Assembly: GCA_025352795.1 (NCBI GenBank)
Contig: JANXSF010000088.1
Span: forward strand, 1 to 64,000
Direction: 5' to 3'
Source of the DNA: Acidobacteriota bacterium
GTDB lineage: Bacteria > Acidobacteriota > Terriglobia > Bryobacterales > Bryobacteraceae
DNA length: 64,000 nucleotides
Positions 4,758 through 16,778 of this stretch are shown here, one piece after another. The notes beneath the pieces were generated by a model that worked only from the letters and a program-made list of their open reading frames with translations, was not told where the DNA came from and did not search any database. The position numbers and the translations under genes were made by a program. Position 1 is the stretch's first letter; each line of letters starts with the position of its first letter.

Positions 4758-5840
4758 ATGCCACGTCCCCCATTGGCTCTCTACCTTTTCGCCCTTAGCA
4801 TTTTCAGCGCATTCGCTATAGACCGCGCGGAGTTCATCCGCATGGTGACGGAGTTTTCTGAACCCGACGGGTACTTTGACACCGACAATCTGATCTCCAA
4901 CGAAACCACTTATCTGGACGCGGCAAGCGCCTTGCGGGAATTGCGCAAGCCGGGGGGCGTTTACTTGGGCGTCGGGCCTGATCAAAACTTTTCCTATATG
5001 GAGCACCTTCGCCCACAGGTTGCCTTTATGGTGGATATTCGACGTGGGAATCTGCTGGAACACATGCTGTTCCGTGCGCTGTTTGAACAATCACGGAATC
5101 GCATGGAGTATCTGTGTTTATTGCTCGGGAAGGCCGTCCCTGCGAATCTGAAGGAATGGAACGATGCGTCGATTCGTAAAATAGTTGAGTACATTGATTC
5201 AGCACGACCAAGTAAGGAACTGTTTGAAAGCGAATCCGCCGAAGTGCAAATGCGCATTCTGGGATTGGGCTTGAAGCTGACCCAAGAAGACCTGAGCACC
5301 ATTAGTGGACTCCACCAACGTTTCTTCGCCGATGGGCTGGACCTGCGCTTCAACACCCATGGGCGAGCGCCGCAACCTTACTATCCAAAATTTCGGGATC
5401 TGATTGTTGCCACTGGCACTTCCGGCAAGCCGGAAAGTTATCTGGCCACCGAAGAGAGTTTTCAATTCGTCAAGCAAATGCAGGAAGAGAATCGCGTAGT
5501 TCCTGTGATTGCCAATCTGGCTGGACCCAAGGCGCTGCGGCAGATCGCCGGATATGCCAAGGGGCGTAAGCTGACGATTCGAGCTTTTTATGTTTCCAAC
5601 GTGGAGCAATATCTAAGCCGCAATGGGGACCTGGAAAAGTTTGCGGAGAACGTGAAGGCACTTCCGCACGACGCGAGCAGCATTCTTATCCGCAGCATTT
5701 TTGGCGGCTTCACTCGAAGGTCCTACAGCGAACAGTTGATTCAACGGATGGAGAGCTTCGTTGCTGGATGGGATAGCGGCAAGCTTGGTTCGTACCAACA
5801 GATTGTGCGAGCCAGCCAGGCCGCTACTTTGACGCAGTAG
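4758..5840 (+). CDS. LIC_10091-like protein, putative exported
   Basis: 360 residues from the ATG at 4758; the open frame extends further upstream, but this start places a hydrophobic signal-like segment (residues 5-20, ending AFA) at the N-terminus. Motifs FSEPDGYFDTDNLISNE, YLGVGPDQNFSYMEHLRP and FMVDIRRGNLLEHMLFRALF resemble the LIC_10091 family, known from structural genomics as a Rossmann-like, methyltransferase-type fold without a defined activity. That family call is from memory of the motifs, not a search. The gene follows Uma2 by 8 bp and its 3' end overlaps the convergent BON-like gene by 17 bp. Confidence 0.7.
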   Translation: MPRPPLALYLFALSIFSAFAIDRAEFIRMVTEFSEPDGYFDTDNLISNETTYLDAASALRELRKPGGVYLGVGPDQNFSYMEHLRPQVAFMVDIRRGNLLEHMLFRALFEQSRNRMEYLCLLLGKAVPANLKEWNDASIRKIVEYIDSARPSKELFESESAEVQMRILGLGLKLTQEDLSTISGLHQRFFADGLDLRFNTHGRAPQPYYPKFRDLIVATGTSGKPESYLATEESFQFVKQMQEENRVVPVIANLAGPKALRQIAGYAKGRKLTIRAFYVSNVEQYLSRNGDLEKFAENVKALPHDASSILIRSIFGGFTRRSYSEQLIQRMESFVAGWDSGKLGSYQQIVRASQAATLTQ

Positions 5841-6237
5841 TACGGGGCTCGCTACGCACCACTTGAGCCCGACGGCGACCCTTCTCTAAATTGGCGGCGG
5901 ACTTGGCCCTTGCCGCATCGCTGATCTGTATATTGTTGACGACAGCACGGGCACCAGCGGCACGGGCCATGCGCGTTGCCGAGCCTTTGTGCTGCACCAC
6001 ATTGGCATTCCCTTCCCAAGTGACAATGCCGCCGCTGACCTTGTAACGGAACCCGTTCTTGCCGATTTTAGATCGTGCAAGCCGCTCCTTGATCGATGCA
6101 GAAATGGCCGCGTCAGTAGCAAGCGGCGCGGTGCCAATGCCGCGCTTATGGGTGGCAGGCGCAGGCGGATTCGCCGCTTGGGCAGTGCCAATCGGCAGAC
6201 AGAAAGTCAGTAACAGAAGGGCGGTAATGGTCCTCAT
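5824..6237 (-). CDS. secreted BON-domain-like protein
   Basis: 137 residues from the ATG at 6237, chosen because MRTITALLLLTFCLPIGTAQA is a clear signal peptide; the frame is open further upstream without signs of coding. The body (about residues 38-110: KERLARSKIG, YKVSGGIVTWEGNANV, HKGSATRMARAAGARAVVNNIQIS) has the pattern of a BON domain, a roughly 60-residue periplasmic alpha/beta fold thought to bind membranes or ligands. The C-terminus is basic. It converges on the LIC_10091-like gene with a 17-bp overlap. Confidence 0.75.
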   Translation of the reverse strand: MRTITALLLLTFCLPIGTAQAANPPAPATHKRGIGTAPLATDAAISASIKERLARSKIGKNGFRYKVSGGIVTWEGNANVVQHKGSATRMARAAGARAVVNNIQISDAARAKSAANLEKGRRRAQVVRSEPRTTASK

Positions 6238-8963: not shown

Positions 8964-9101
8964 TTAGGGGACAGAGTCCAGGACAGAGTCCCCCATCAAG
9001 GCGATGCTCTCCTCCTTTTCTCCCGGTATGGGAACAAGTCCGCCGGTGTTTTGTAAATTCAGCGCCTGGTGTGGACGCTTGCCAACTTCGGAATCAAGGT
9101 T
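8964..9101 (-). pseudogene. C-terminal fragment of an IS3/IS481-type transposase
   Basis: The frame reads GKRPHQALNLQNTGGLVPIPG and stops at 8964. The phrase RPHQALN is the well-known end of the catalytic domain of rve-type transposases (IS3, IS481 families). Nothing of the DDE core or orfA is found upstream; the sequence before it belongs to a different small frame. This is a remnant only, marking a past insertion and deletion. Confidence 0.6.
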
Positions 9102-9234
9102 TAGAAGCGGCTGCGGTGGAATCCAGTTCTTCCGGACGCACAACCGTGAAATCATTCGTGAAATAAGCTGTTACATCTTCGCCACGTGTGGCCATCTCTT
9201 GTGCGGTTTTAGTTGGTCTGAATGTTTCCGGCAT
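9094..9234 (-). pseudogene. small ORF resembling the N-terminus of a CopG-type antitoxin, probably truncated
   Basis: A 46-codon frame beginning MPETFRPTKTAQEMATRGED and continuing VTAYFTNDFTVVRP, then EELDSTAAASKP and a stop. The GEDVxAYFTNxFTVVRP phrase is what I remember from the N-terminus of ribbon-helix-helix antitoxins, which then continue with a VQRVNVD strand and ELDxxA helix. Here VVRP runs straight into EELDSTAA, as if the strand had been deleted. It begins 7 bp after the ybdD-like gene and overlaps the transposase remnant by a few bases. No toxin gene is present. Confidence 0.45.
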
Positions 9235-9241
9235 AAATTTT

Positions 9242-9418
9242 TCAACAGCACTTGGCGTTGGCATACTTCTGCCTTAGCCGCTCTTCGGAAAACTTGCGCC
9301 ATTCGGCGCCAGAGTGCTCCCTTCTATGCGATGCTAGATGTCGTTTGTAGGCGCTCTCATCGCTGATCTCACGCAGAATCCCTATCAATATCCGACCCAG
9401 TTTTTTTAAGAAGTTCAT
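9242..9418 (-). CDS. ybdD: YbdD/YjiX family protein, CstA-associated
   Basis: A 58-residue protein: MNFLKKLGRILIGILREISD, then ESAYKRHLASHRREH, ERLRQKYANAK and a terminal Cys-Cys. The short length, the Y-x3-HL and H-x-HS-x-W/F-ER-x-KY pattern and the CC ending fit the YbdD/YjiX (DUF466-type) family, which is almost always encoded just after cstA or btsT/yjiY. Its ATG overlaps the cstA TGA as ATGA, implying translational coupling. Its role in carbon-starvation peptide or pyruvate transport is unknown. Confidence 0.85.
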   Translation of the reverse strand: MNFLKKLGRILIGILREISDESAYKRHLASHRREHSGAEWRKFSEERLRQKYANAKCC

Positions 9419-11481
9419 ACTTCCTCCGCGCTCAATCGGCTCTGCACAAAGGGCGATTCTAAATTACGAGCATCGCGTTGACCTCGCAAAATTCCGGTCC
9501 ACAGCACAATAGAATCTACAAGGATCGTGGCCACCAACACTAGGAACACACCGCACACCACTGCATCCAACTGGTTATTGAAGATCAGCGCCTTCACTTC
9601 TCCTAACTTTCCTGCGGCTACCTTCCCTGCCGCAATGTTCGATTCAAACACCCCAGCTTGTGACAAAAATCCGATCCTGGGAACATCGCTGAAAATCTTT
9701 TGCAGCGCGGCTGTGAAGGTGACCGTGATCAACCATACCAGCGGTAAGATGGTGATCCACATGTACCGCGCCCGATGCATCTTGATGAGGATCGTCGTAC
9801 CGAGACACAACGCAATAATCGCCAGCAACTGATTGGCGATCCCAAACAGCGGCCATAGCGTATTGATGCCACCTAGCGGATCGAGGACGCCCTGCACTAG
9901 AAAATAACCCCAGCTTAGGACGATGACGAGGCTGGAAAAAATCACTCCAGGCATCCAACTGGTTCGACCCAAGGGTGCATAAACATGTCCCAATAAATCC
10001 TGCAACATGAAGCGGCCCACACGTGTTCCGGCGTCAATTACAGTAAGGATAAAGAGGGCCTCAAACATAATGGCAAAGTGATACCAGAAGCCAAGAATCG
10101 CATCGCCACCCAGACCTTTGGAAAAAATGTGAGCCATTCCTAATGCAAGGGATGGCGCACCGCCAGTGCGATAGAATAAGCTTTCTTCGCCAACACTTTT
10201 TGCAAGCGTGGCCATTTGATCGGCAGTCACCGGGAACCCCCAACTGCTGATCGTGGCGACGGCTGCTTGTGGCGTGGCCCCGATGATTCCAGCAGGAGAA
10301 TTCACCGCGAAGTACACGCCAGGGTCAAGCACGCAGGCGGCGATGATGGCCATGATAGCCACAAAACTTTCCAGCAACATGGACCCGTAACCAATGGGAA
10401 AAATGTGTGTCTCTTTGCAAATCATCTTGGGCGTGGTGCCTGAAGAGATCAACGAATGAAAGCCAGAGATTGCACCGCAGGCAATGGTGATGAAGCAGAA
10501 CGGGAAGACGGAGCCTGCGAAGATAGGCCCAGTGCCGTCGATGAATCGGGTCAACGGTGGCATCTGCAAGTTGGGACGAACGAACAAAATTCCGATGCCC
10601 AGCATCAGCACAACGCCTAATTTGACGAACGTTGATAGGTAATCGCGCGGGGCTAACAGCAGCCACACAGGCAGTGCGCTGGCACAAAATCCATAGATGA
10701 TCACAGCGATTGCCAGTGCCAATCCCGACAGTGTGAACCACGGTGCCCAGGTTGCGGAGTGCGCTACCCATTCCCCGGCGAAGATGCTGGCAAGTATAAG
10801 CAGGAAGCCAATCACTGAGGCTTCCAGCACTTTTCCAGGACGCCAAAATCGCAAGTAGAGCCCCATGAAAATGGCGATGGGCATGGTGGCCGCAATCGTG
10901 AAAGTGCCCCAGGGGCTGCCTTTCAAGGCATTCACTACAACCAGGGCAACCACTGCCAGCAGGATAATCATGATGAGCAACACGGTGATCAATGCAGTGA
11001 AACCGCCGACTTTGCCAATCTCTTCTTTGGCCATTTGTCCCAACGATTTTCCATCGCGCCGGACTGAACAAAACAGAATAATAAAGTCCTGAATGGCTCC
11101 GCCCAACACCGCGCCGATGATGATCCACAACGTCCCAGGCAAGTATCCGAACTGGGCGGCGAGCGTAGGCCCAACCAGCGGACCCGGCCCTGCAATGGCT
11201 GCAAAATGATGACCGAACACAATCCATTTATTGGTGGGTTCGAAATCATGTCCGTTGCGCATGCGTTCGGCAGGGGTGGCACGATTGTCGTCCAGCGCCA
11301 TCACCTTGGCCGCAATCCATGCTGCATAGAAGCGGTAGCCGGTGATGTAAGTGCATGCCGACGCCACTACCAGCCACATGGAGTTCACCGGTTCCCCACG
11401 ATTCATGGCGATTCCAGCCAATGTGAATGCAGCAACAATGGCGATCACCACCCAGACTAATTTCCCCAGAAGTTTATTCAT
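9415..11481 (-). CDS. cstA: carbon starvation protein CstA, peptide/pyruvate transporter family
   Basis: 688 residues with about 16 to 18 hydrophobic segments. CstA-family motifs are present: NGHDFEPTNKWIVFGHHFAAIAGPGPLVGPTLAAQFGYLPG near residue 75-115, and FHSLISSGTTPKMI near 345. Members are inner-membrane transporters for peptides (CstA) or pyruvate (BtsT), induced on carbon limitation; the substrate here cannot be read from sequence. It is the middle gene of a unit: a GNAT gene ends 12 bp upstream, and the ybdD-like gene overlaps its stop codon. A LytTR/histidine-kinase regulator such as that of btsT is not adjacent. Confidence 0.95.
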   Translation of the reverse strand: MNKLLGKLVWVVIAIVAAFTLAGIAMNRGEPVNSMWLVVASACTYITGYRFYAAWIAAKVMALDDNRATPAERMRNGHDFEPTNKWIVFGHHFAAIAGPGPLVGPTLAAQFGYLPGTLWIIIGAVLGGAIQDFIILFCSVRRDGKSLGQMAKEEIGKVGGFTALITVLLIMIILLAVVALVVVNALKGSPWGTFTIAATMPIAIFMGLYLRFWRPGKVLEASVIGFLLILASIFAGEWVAHSATWAPWFTLSGLALAIAVIIYGFCASALPVWLLLAPRDYLSTFVKLGVVLMLGIGILFVRPNLQMPPLTRFIDGTGPIFAGSVFPFCFITIACGAISGFHSLISSGTTPKMICKETHIFPIGYGSMLLESFVAIMAIIAACVLDPGVYFAVNSPAGIIGATPQAAVATISSWGFPVTADQMATLAKSVGEESLFYRTGGAPSLALGMAHIFSKGLGGDAILGFWYHFAIMFEALFILTVIDAGTRVGRFMLQDLLGHVYAPLGRTSWMPGVIFSSLVIVLSWGYFLVQGVLDPLGGINTLWPLFGIANQLLAIIALCLGTTILIKMHRARYMWITILPLVWLITVTFTAALQKIFSDVPRIGFLSQAGVFESNIAAGKVAAGKLGEVKALIFNNQLDAVVCGVFLVLVATILVDSIVLWTGILRGQRDARNLESPFVQSRLSAEEV

Positions 11482-14154: not shown

Positions 14155-14661
14155 ATGGTTCGACTCGATACGGTATTAGAGTCCTGGAAGTCCGTCCGCG
14201 CTGATACGGTGCAGGCGCTTGAAGATTTCCCTTCTGCGGAACTTGATTTCCGGCCGACGGAAGACTTAATGACATTCCGGGAATTGGCGGTTCACATTCT
14301 GCAAAGCGGTGAAGCTTTGGCAGGAATGCTGTCTGCTGGAGATAAGACATTTCAGGGTCCGGATGCCAGAAAGCGCATGAATTCGTTTGCCAGGCCGTTG
14401 AGCCAGAGCCCTGATAGTGGCGAACTTTCCCGCAATTTGTCGGAGAGCGTGGCGTTGCGGTCGGCAGAGTTGGCGGTAAAAAGTCCCGAGTTTTATGCTG
14501 AGACCATCACCCGGTTTGATGGTGCTGAAGTAACACGACTTGAGATGCTGCAATTTGTGAAAGAACATGAATTAACGCATCGAGCCCAGATGTTTTTATG
14601 CCTGCGATTGAAGGGAATTGTTCCTCCAACCACACGTCGGAAATTGGCTGCAAAAAAATAA
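14155..14661 (+). CDS. DinB family putative metal-dependent enzyme
   Basis: 168 residues with the DinB/YfiT four-helix pattern. The likely metal ligands are His47 (ELAVHILQ) and His138 and His142 (EHELTHRAQM), all three present. Many family members act as thiol-dependent transferases with bacillithiol or other thiols; others are uncharacterised. The downstream LysW-like gene begins 70 bp later on the same strand. It is divergent from the sulfatase gene. Confidence 0.85.
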   Translation: MVRLDTVLESWKSVRADTVQALEDFPSAELDFRPTEDLMTFRELAVHILQSGEALAGMLSAGDKTFQGPDARKRMNSFARPLSQSPDSGELSRNLSESVALRSAELAVKSPEFYAETITRFDGAEVTRLEMLQFVKEHELTHRAQMFLCLRLKGIVPPTTRRKLAAKK

Positions 14662-14731: not shown

Positions 14732-14968
14732 ATGGTGAAATGCCCCCTTTGTGACGCAAATATTGACGTCGAAGAAGATGAATTGGATGAAGGCGATGAG
14801 CTTAATTGCGACGAATGCGCTGCGCTGCTGCGCGTGAGCGACAAGACGCCGCTGGAGCTTGTCTCAGCCGATGATGAAGACGACGACGATGAAGACGACG
14901 ACGATCTTGATGATTTGGATGAAGATGATGAAGAGGATGCCGAACAAGAGGAAGAGGATTGGCAGTAG
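14732..14968 (+). CDS. LysW-like zinc-ribbon carrier protein with long acidic tail ending in Gln
   Basis: 78 residues. The N-terminal 45 match LysW, the amino-group carrier of lysine/arginine biosynthesis: Cys4-x2-Cys7 and Cys26-x2-Cys29 zinc ribbon and SDKTPLELV. Classical LysW is about 54 residues and ends EDWGE, whose terminal Glu is conjugated to the substrate. Here about 25 Asp/Glu residues are inserted (48-75) and the end is EEEDWQ, with Gln last. Unless the Gln is deamidated, as with the Gln form of Pup, it could not carry a substrate in the usual way. No lysX/argX, lysZ or other lysine genes are nearby. GGAGA lies 9 bp before the ATG. Confidence 0.75.
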   Translation: MVKCPLCDANIDVEEDELDEGDELNCDECAALLRVSDKTPLELVSADDEDDDDEDDDDLDDLDEDDEEDAEQEEEDWQ

Positions 14969-15317: not shown

Positions 15318-15359
15318 AACCGATCTCTGCAATCTGACATCTCACCATTTGTGAGGACC

Positions 15360-15752
15360 ATGCGTTTTCGTTCCATTCTTAGTTTATGCATTGCAACTAC
15401 GCTGTTTACTGCGGCGATAGCCATTGCTCAAGTTCAATTTCCAAGTGGTGGGAAGAAGGATAAAGAAGATCCAACAATTCGCACGGCGCAGGGGACCGTT
15501 CGCAATGCGAATGAAGAAATTGTGGTGGGTGCCGTGGTGCAGATCAAGAACGTGAAAAGCCTGCAGATCCGGTCCTTTATCACCAAAGACGACGGAATGT
15601 TTACCTTCAACAATTTGGCACGGGATGTGGATTATGAACTTCGTGCTGAAGGAAAAGGATTCGCATCGCCAATGAAATTGCTTTCCACTTTCGACAATCG
15701 TAAGGTGGCTGTGTTGAATCTGAAATTGGAAAACAAGGTTGAGAAAAAATGA
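15360..15752 (+). CDS. secreted carboxypeptidase-regulatory-like domain protein
   Basis: 130 residues from ATG 15360, with a GAGG ribosome site 4 to 7 bp upstream. The signal peptide ends near AIAIAQ (about residue 24). A single CarboxypepD_reg-like domain follows (QGTVRNANEEIVVGAVVQIKN, DDGMFTFNNLARDVDYELRAEGKGF). It lies 42 bp after the similar protein at 14937 and overlaps the redoxin gene by ATGA, so the set is likely one operon. Function unknown. Confidence 0.8.
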   Translation: MRFRSILSLCIATTLFTAAIAIAQVQFPSGGKKDKEDPTIRTAQGTVRNANEEIVVGAVVQIKNVKSLQIRSFITKDDGMFTFNNLARDVDYELRAEGKGFASPMKLLSTFDNRKVAVLNLKLENKVEKK

Positions 15753-16300
15753 TCCGCAGGTTGCCGCTTATTGCAGTGCTGATCAGCGCGGCCCAGGCGG
15801 CAACCCCTTCCCTCCGTTTGAGCGACATCAATCATCAACCAGTTGAAATTCAAGCCAGTAAATCAATGGCTACGGTAGTGATTTTTGTATCGACATTCTG
15901 CCCTGTCTCCAACGCTTACCACGACCGGTACAAGCAGTTGGTTTCGAAGTTTGCAGCCAAATCAGTCCAATTTGTGTTCATCAATTCCAACGATAACGAG
16001 ACGTTGGATGACGTGAAGGAGCACATTCGTGCCGCCGAACTATCGTTCCCTGTTTACAAGGATTGGAAGAATAGCGTTGCCGATAAGCTGGGAGCGTCAA
16101 TGACTCCCGAAGCGTTTGTTTTGGACCGCAAGGGCGAGGTGCTGTATCACGGGGCCGTGGACGATTCCAAGAACGAGGCTCGCGTAAAGATCAGCGCGCT
16201 GCACGATGCCATTGCCAACGTTTTGAACCGGAAGTCAGTTGCGAAAAAAGAGTTGAAAGCCTTTGGTTGTACAATCCACCGTTATCGGAAAATTTCTTAA
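15749..16300 (+). CDS. exported redoxin / thioredoxin-like protein with CxxS
   Basis: 183 residues. A signal peptide (1-17) is followed by a thioredoxin-fold domain: ATVVIFVSTFCPVSNAYHDRY puts the single active Cys at 51 in a CPVS motif, and SMTPEAFVLDRKGEVLYHG contains the cis-Pro region. The second Cys of CxxC is replaced by Ser, so it is more likely a peroxiredoxin-like or thiol-binding protein than a dithiol oxidoreductase. A Cys at about residue 175 (AFGCTIHRY) may resolve. ATGA overlap with the preceding gene; tlpA-like gene follows with no gap. Confidence 0.8.
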   Translation: MIRRLPLIAVLISAAQAATPSLRLSDINHQPVEIQASKSMATVVIFVSTFCPVSNAYHDRYKQLVSKFAAKSVQFVFINSNDNETLDDVKEHIRAAELSFPVYKDWKNSVADKLGASMTPEAFVLDRKGEVLYHGAVDDSKNEARVKISALHDAIANVLNRKSVAKKELKAFGCTIHRYRKIS

Positions 16301-16301
16301 C

Positions 16302-16778
16302 ATGCGCTTGCTCGTTGGACTACTACTCATCCCGTCGGCCATCTGGGCCCAGCCAGCTAACCCTTTGCCCGTCGTAAGTGAAGCAAATTACGCGTCTACA
16401 GTAGCTGCCAACAAAGGCAAGGTGGTGCTGGTAAATTTCTGGGCTACGTGGTGCGTCCCCTGTCGTAAGGAGATGCCTGCATTAGTGAAAATGGCCGCAC
16501 GGCTGGAGTCCAAGGGCTTCACGTTAGTGACCATATCTGGGGATGAAGCTGAAGCGGAAAGCGAAGCTCGAAAGTTTCTAATAGCGAATGCCGTGAAGCC
16601 GCCCACCTACATTAGAAAAGCCAAGGACGAAGACAAGTTCATCACTTTGGTGGACGCCAAATGGAACGGGTCGTTGCCAACGCTGTTTCTGTATGATCGC
16701 AAAGGTGTCAAGGTTAAAGCCTGGTACGGGGAAACGTCTCTGGAGGTGGTCGAGGCGCAGATCGCCAAGTTGTTTTAG
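16302..16778 (+). CDS. TlpA-type periplasmic thioredoxin
   Basis: 158 residues from ATG 16302, which gives a clean signal peptide (MRLLVGLLLIPSAIWAQ). The thioredoxin fold has a complete WCVPC motif (Cys51, Cys54) and the SLPTLFLYDRKG cis-Pro loop. TlpA/ResA-type proteins reduce disulfides of secreted proteins, often for cytochrome c maturation. Its start lies 1 bp after the redoxin gene. It is the last gene before a hairpin repeat, which may end the transcript. Confidence 0.88.
   Translation: MRLLVGLLLIPSAIWAQPANPLPVVSEANYASTVAANKGKVVLVNFWATWCVPCRKEMPALVKMAARLESKGFTLVTISGDEAEAESEARKFLIANAVKPPTYIRKAKDEDKFITLVDAKWNGSLPTLFLYDRKGVKVKAWYGETSLEVVEAQIAKLF

Follow-up and report, generated by a model that had tools for sequence, protein, structure and literature searches.

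Among the genes of the window, by which we mean the whole 64,000-nucleotide stretch of acidobacterial DNA analysed here, is one whose small product resembles the amino-group carrier protein LysW, carries a long run of acidic residues and ends in glutamine. In known LysW and ArgW proteins the substrate is loaded on the C-terminal glutamate of an EDWGE motif, this motif is recognised by LysX or ArgX via GSWGR, and the E54A change in ArgW results in auxotrophy (PMC10433800). What, then, does a LysW-like protein with a different end do? A sequence-only reading offered two answers: either a Dop-like or deamidase-like step exposes a glutamate, or the protein has left lysine biosynthesis.

The protein and its LysW ancestry

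The gene occupies positions 14732–14968 of the forward strand, runs from ATG to TAG, and encodes 78 residues, of which residues 2–47 match a LysW zinc-ribbon model. The features first picked out in it are all present: cysteines at 4/7 and 26/29, a TPLELV segment at 39–44, an acidic run and an EEEDWQ end. The whole protein has 40 Asp/Glu and 3 Lys/Arg, a net charge of −37. The acidic tail (residues 46–78, encoded at 14867–14965 of the same strand and ending in EDWQ) has 26 Asp/Glu among its 33 residues; Trp77 is conserved and Gln78 is not. Block means of confidence in an AF2 model are 86–90 over residues 1–40, 76 over residues 41–50 and 56–60 in the tail from residue 51, and the tail is polyacidic and predicted to be disordered.

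Homologues (E ≤ 0.001) were found in 172 of 200 genomes sampled from the window's family (f1, the genomes labelled as the same family as the window), and in public species genomes all 23 relatives code for a zinc ribbon with an acidic tail after it. Between the window and locus L013, codons 1–46 gave a dN of 0.023 and a dS of 0.83 (dN/dS about 0.03, NG86), so these 46 codons are under strong purifying selection in that comparison. The open reading frame is real rather than a chance one, since homologues are so widespread in the family and dN is so low relative to dS.

In the Pfam scan of the window protein, the model named first was the LysW globular domain (PF21344, 27.2 bits against a cut-off of 27). 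The curated LysW models stayed below their cut-offs (TIGR01206, 16.6 against 53.2; NF041070, 20.9 against 75), as they did for the EDWGQ-ended LysW of locus L161 (47.1 and 55.3, respectively). A profile built from the 23 relatives matched LysW structures in the PDB (3wwl, 2.4e-11; 5k2m, 1.8e-9; 3vpb, 8.6e-4), and a Foldseek search with the AF2 model returned LysW or LysW complexes as all of its top six PDB matches (prob 1.00, rmsd 1.2–2.1), with E-values of just 0.013–0.065, the domain being so small. By profile and predicted structure, the window protein has the LysW zinc-ribbon fold. In a domain tree of 79 rows, 42 acidic proteins were split from 37 LysW proteins of LysX loci by a branch with 82/88 support, which is modest because the alignment has 49 columns; in this tree the acidic proteins are one clade, separate from true LysW.

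Probable departure from amino-group carriage

An exposed Glu could be used by a LysX/RimK-type ligase. Such a ligase was not found in the window's genome, which is 96.6% complete (best match 31.7 bits against a cut-off of 275.6), and none of 200 genomes of the window's family had a LysX-model match at E ≤ 1e-25, in a search that did match its positive control, E. coli (presumably via its RimK). In a phylum-wide sample of 396 genomes, LysX was matched at 1e-30 in 92, none of them from f1 (3 sampled) or f2 (43 sampled). The window's genome does contain diaminopimelate decarboxylase (lysA, 506 bits) and ArgJ (argJ, 406 bits), which on these matches belong to the standard routes to lysine and arginine; in agreement with the sequence-only reading, the list of open reading frames from 9 to 22 kb includes no lys or arg gene.

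The homologues agree. Of 219 loci read, 218 gave proteins (L065 gave none), 181 of them unique, and not one of these 181 acidic proteins ends in EDWGE, for which reason a sequencing error masking that end in the window was rejected; the EDWGE end sits on the separate LysW clade, beside LysX. Counts for the window's family cover 116 unique proteins from 118 loci and leave out ten public-genome loci of assumed family, including L025 and L029, which are clearly outside it; counting them in, for 126 proteins, makes hardly any difference. The last residue is Lys in 43 of the 116, Arg in 24, Trp in 23, His in 14, Tyr in 3, Gln, Glu and Ser in 2 each, and Ala, Val and Asn in 1 each. With the last residue so poorly conserved, Gln as a site of deamidation was rejected. 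A carrier that becomes charged once its Gln is deamidated would account for the LysW fold and ancestry, but it has next to no chance of being correct, given that Gln is last in just 2 of 116 proteins, that the ligase was found neither in the window's genome nor in the 200 family genomes, and that lysA and argJ are present. On these grounds, the window protein is very probably not an amino-group carrier. The first of the two original proposals, a step exposing Glu, is not supported, and the second, an exit from lysine biosynthesis, is supported, with LysX missing from the family search, a separate acidic clade, and lysA and argJ in the same genome.

Carrier and acidic paralogue can be found together. 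LysX exceeds its cut-off in 43 genomes, and at least 12 of these (a hand count) have an acidic-profile match somewhere other than the LysX locus, so the two coexist. A second standard LysW was not found in the window's own genome, where the second, weak protein match (C83) is a 56-residue open reading frame that we take to resemble a Trm112-type protein, and three more PF21344 matches are under the cut-off at 12.5–13 bits.

The deamidase idea may have a counterpart, in true LysW rather than in the window protein. LysW beside LysX was read in 41 of the 43 genomes that pass the LysX cut-off; in G307 and G498, outside these 41 full stretches, both LysW proteins end in EDWGE. The end was visible in 40 of the 41, and it is EDWGE in 35 and EDWGQ in 5 (G204, G201, G209, G569 and G396, from four families). 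At locus L161 the EDWGQ-ended LysW lies at 5662–5850 and an EgtC-like amidohydrolase at 8964–9602; further loci with such a LysW are L263, L268, L294 and L296. This small Ntn-type protein was found in 5 of 5 Gln-type stretches, in 5 of 35 Glu-type stretches, and in G231, where LysW is off the contig. It starts with MCR in 7 of 8 sequences, EgtC amidohydrolases are its sole solved relatives below an E of 0.001, and its best NCBIfam match is again EgtC, at a sub-threshold score (52.7 against 218.65). The 41 LysX stretches divide into 11 with the amidohydrolase only, 28 with LysK only, none with both and 2 with neither; the contig ends before the usual place of LysK in both of the last two and in one of the 11 (L265). 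In G204, LysK was not found when the stretch was extended to about 13 kb beyond LysX. In the domain tree a branch (89/80) sets apart the ten LysW proteins from amidohydrolase operons, with Gln and Glu ends interspersed among them. A search of the LysX proteins of Gln-type operons for a changed ligase motif, using an ad hoc pattern, gave nothing usable.

EgtC cleaves a gamma-glutamyl amide. Because the same bond occurs in LysW-lysine and in a C-terminal Gln, one enzyme could both make LysW-Glu from LysW-Gln and release lysine; by analogy, the EgtC-like protein could be a deamidase of LysW-Gln and a replacement for LysK. Among the open-access papers listed, nothing relevant turned up on LysW with LysK and a glutamine amidotransferase, or on LysW with a C-terminal glutamine. 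If the proposal is true, this would be a novel mechanism for priming and unloading such carriers.

The acidic tail and its gene neighbourhood

In the window's family the conserved feature of the tail is its tryptophan. Trp is within the last two residues in 107 of the 116 family proteins and within the last three in 108, while 2000 shuffles of the same tails put it within those three in 10.3 proteins on average and in 22 at most. Any aromatic residue is found in the last three in 112 of 116 (shuffle maximum 41). Families other than f1 and f2 contributed 39 proteins: 14 have Trp among the last three residues (shuffle mean 2.3, maximum 7), and 25 have an aromatic residue of any kind there (mean 8.0, maximum 17). 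The 16 unique f2 tails have no such Trp and an aromatic in the last three in 3, against a shuffle mean of 2.0, and so no signal. Since related sequences are not independent, these shuffles test position and not events. By these counts, the window's family shows a strong acidic-aromatic tip, several other families also have one, and f2 has none; the terminal Gln of the window protein is incidental, and Trp is the residue conserved. At L154, L155, L157, L160, L163, L166 and L170–L172, acidic tails end in Phe, Tyr or Trp despite different flanking genes, which suggests selection for the tip in those families too.

Across the clade the tail varies in length and sequence while its mean acidity holds at 60–77%. 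This constancy, together with the net charge of the window protein, is what a polyanion would show, that is, a metal or cation buffer or a nucleic-acid mimic in which charge alone matters. Neither the terminal Trp of the window's family nor the conserved folded domain would be needed for this, and we consider such a role quite improbable.

The gene next downstream begins inside the tail. It encodes a secreted CarboxypepD_reg protein (PF13620; 14937–15317, forward strand) starting at 14937 or 14928, out of frame within the acidic-tail codons. From the stop of the acidic gene to the hydrophobic stretch of the next frame the window has no ATG, GTG or TTG, so the start must lie within those codons, and the same is true of 55 of the 116 unique family loci. 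The GAx runs of the acidic tail, read in +1, encode Met, Lys and Arg of the secreted protein; this is how 14928–14968 comes to hold both its start codon and its basic n-region. These 55 loci, the window's among them, would suit a reading in which the tail is mainly a by-product of a translation device that furnishes the following gene with its start and signal-peptide n-region. This is very unlikely: 25 of the 116 loci lack an overlapping downstream frame and 24 of these 25 keep Trp in the last two residues, so that the terminal Trp is independent of the overlapping gene, and acidic tails also occur in families with other downstream genes.

The remaining neighbours are as originally described. 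After the first CarboxypepD_reg gene come a second small secreted protein of this type (15360–15752; the frame opens at a GTG at 15351 and has an ATG at 15360), a Redoxin/AhpC-TSA thioredoxin-fold protein named by Pfam (15749–16300) and a thioredoxin/AhpC-TSA protein (16263–16778, true start probably downstream of 16263) with a WCVPC motif that looks TlpA-like by eye. A DinB-family protein is directly upstream (14155–14661); all of these genes are on the forward strand. Neighbourhoods were compared over 82 loci, leaving out L161, where no acidic protein was found. Relatives of the window gene have genes for CarboxypepD_reg and thioredoxin-fold proteins (Pfam names) downstream, one or two of each, and upstream either a DinB gene (similar to the window's in 6 of 82 loci) or one for a 129-residue protein without a Pfam match. 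This conserved protein of about 129 residues (cluster 8) is upstream in 18 of 82 loci, and at L032 its frame starts 476 bases before the acidic gene; the genes further upstream of it are often, we presume, FolE-like and 6-pyruvoyl-tetrahydropterin synthase (PTPS)-like.

Thioredoxin-fold genes downstream would fit a redox-regulated holdase, in which oxidation releases zinc and the freed disordered tail binds unfolding clients. The analogy is with mycobacterial Ruc (Rv0991c), described as a zinc ribbon with a variable, disordered, hydrophilic tail (PMC7448276), the same architecture as here. The thioredoxin-fold neighbours, though, look exported from their N-termini, while the window protein has no signal peptide by eye; the Pfam scan of the window protein names LysW first; and the terminal Trp would be superfluous in a purely client-binding tail. 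A holdase thus appears improbable.

Linkage to LarE and a possible adaptor role

LarE inserts sulfur during synthesis of the nickel-pincer cofactor, and the gene directly downstream of the acidic one encodes it in eight further families of acidobacteria (f16, f25, f34, f40, f47, f63, f76 and f85). A TIGR00268 match lies on the same strand within 100 nt of the acidic gene in at least 20 genomes of eight families and within 1.1 kb in at least seven further genomes, and a PP-loop motif is within 300 nt of the gene for 19 of the 181 unique proteins. The LarE start overlaps the acidic stop as ATGA or GTGA in 15 of these 19 adjacent loci. A terminal Glu in 17 of the 19 LarE-linked members was considered as evidence of a carrier and set aside, because in 15 of 19 the overlapping LarE start takes its first base from that last codon. 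LarE-linked members are near the base of the acidic clade in a tree drawn with a midpoint root, so the linkage may be old.

It is possible, if unlikely, that the protein is a LarE or nickel-pincer accessory throughout the clade, delivering sulfur or metal to LarE or serving as its scaffold, and that the window's family has lost just the gene linkage. The direct 5′ position and the stop/start overlap favour this, as does the finding of LarC in 26 of 30 genomes tested, the window's own included. In G250 (locus L156, family f33), LarC, at C16:39176–40477, is some 5 kb away from the acidic gene. LarE was found at 1e-40 in 132 of 145 genomes with an A1 match and in 151 of 251 without, counts that ignore relatedness and in which some A1 matches are true LysW; since LarE is also present in those 151 genomes, the co-occurrence is loose. 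Among the 13 A1-match genomes in which LarE was not found at 1e-40, at least three (G209, G210 and G238) have true LysW loci, and others have acidic proteins. Against an accessory role, the 82-locus comparison showed no linkage in f1 or f2, although the acidic protein is nearly universal there, and LarE was not matched in G272, G320 and G518, f2 genomes that have the acidic protein. The window's genome itself has LarE, unlinked (309.6 bits), and LarC elsewhere. In G350 (L169) the acidic protein ends in DDWDE, LarE was not found in the genome, and the gene immediately downstream of the acidic one is that which follows LarE in other genomes.

The explanation that we prefer, at a little under an even chance, is that the window protein is a LysW paralogue that lost its carrier job and now serves as a small non-covalent adaptor with an acidic-aromatic docking tail. 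The paralogue has lost the C-terminal Glu and keeps the zinc-ribbon fold, and LysX was not found in the family genomes searched; the folded domain and acidic tail may dock on a basic patch of a partner protein, with the terminal Trp inserted into one of its pockets, by analogy with the acidic-aromatic tips of SSB. The LysW fold, the separate acidic clade, the lack of a LysX match in 200 family genomes and the low dN/dS are consistent with this, and the position of Trp, exceeding shuffles and kept where no frame overlaps, argues for a docking tip. Because the gene directly precedes larE in eight families, a LarE-type PP-loop enzyme or another nickel-pincer step is the best candidate for the partner. 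The adaptor is less well served by f2, where the tip lacks Trp, by the families without larE linkage, by G350, which keeps the protein with no LarE found, and by the loose co-occurrence, short alignment and weak Foldseek E-values given above.

A bolder version, which we consider improbable, is that a LysW paralogue of ancient origin was recruited throughout Acidobacteriota as a dedicated protein cofactor for PP-loop sulfurtransferases of the LarE type, and that the window's family was then freed from larE and its tail remodelled to a Trp-ended docking motif. If true, this would be a carrier-like LarE partner, which we have not met in any description of nickel-pincer cofactor synthesis; in the open-access library searched, a single paper mentions both LarE and LysW, as separate table or reference entries. 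In the adaptor explanation, a biosynthetic carrier protein has been turned to something else and retained in the majority of the genomes sampled from two large families, so that an annotation as 'LysW-like' says little about lysine pathways. The linkage to LarE offers a testable route to the job of the acidic protein.

Comparison with known systems places the protein as follows. SSB proteins have a disordered acidic tail ending in an aromatic residue (Phe), a likeness that exceeds chance in the window's family and not in f2; in the acidic protein Trp replaces Phe, often followed by one Lys, Arg or His, and a DNA-binding domain was not recognised. Pup, whose C-terminal Gln is deamidated by Dop, is also small and acidic, and the window protein shares its last residue, which its family does not conserve. 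Ruc resembles it in combining a small zinc ribbon with a variable disordered tail, (PMC7448276); in the Pfam scan of the window protein, LysW is the first name given and a relation to Ruc was not detected. With LysW/ArgW (PF21344, TIGR01206, NF041070; PDB 3WWL, 5K2M, 3VPB) it shares the zinc-ribbon fold, the CxxC spacing, the P-L-E-L segment and a Trp near the C-terminus; where the carriers have EDWGE, a terminal Glu and a LysX partner, none of which was found for the window protein, the acidic clade has added an acidic tail of about 12–50 residues.
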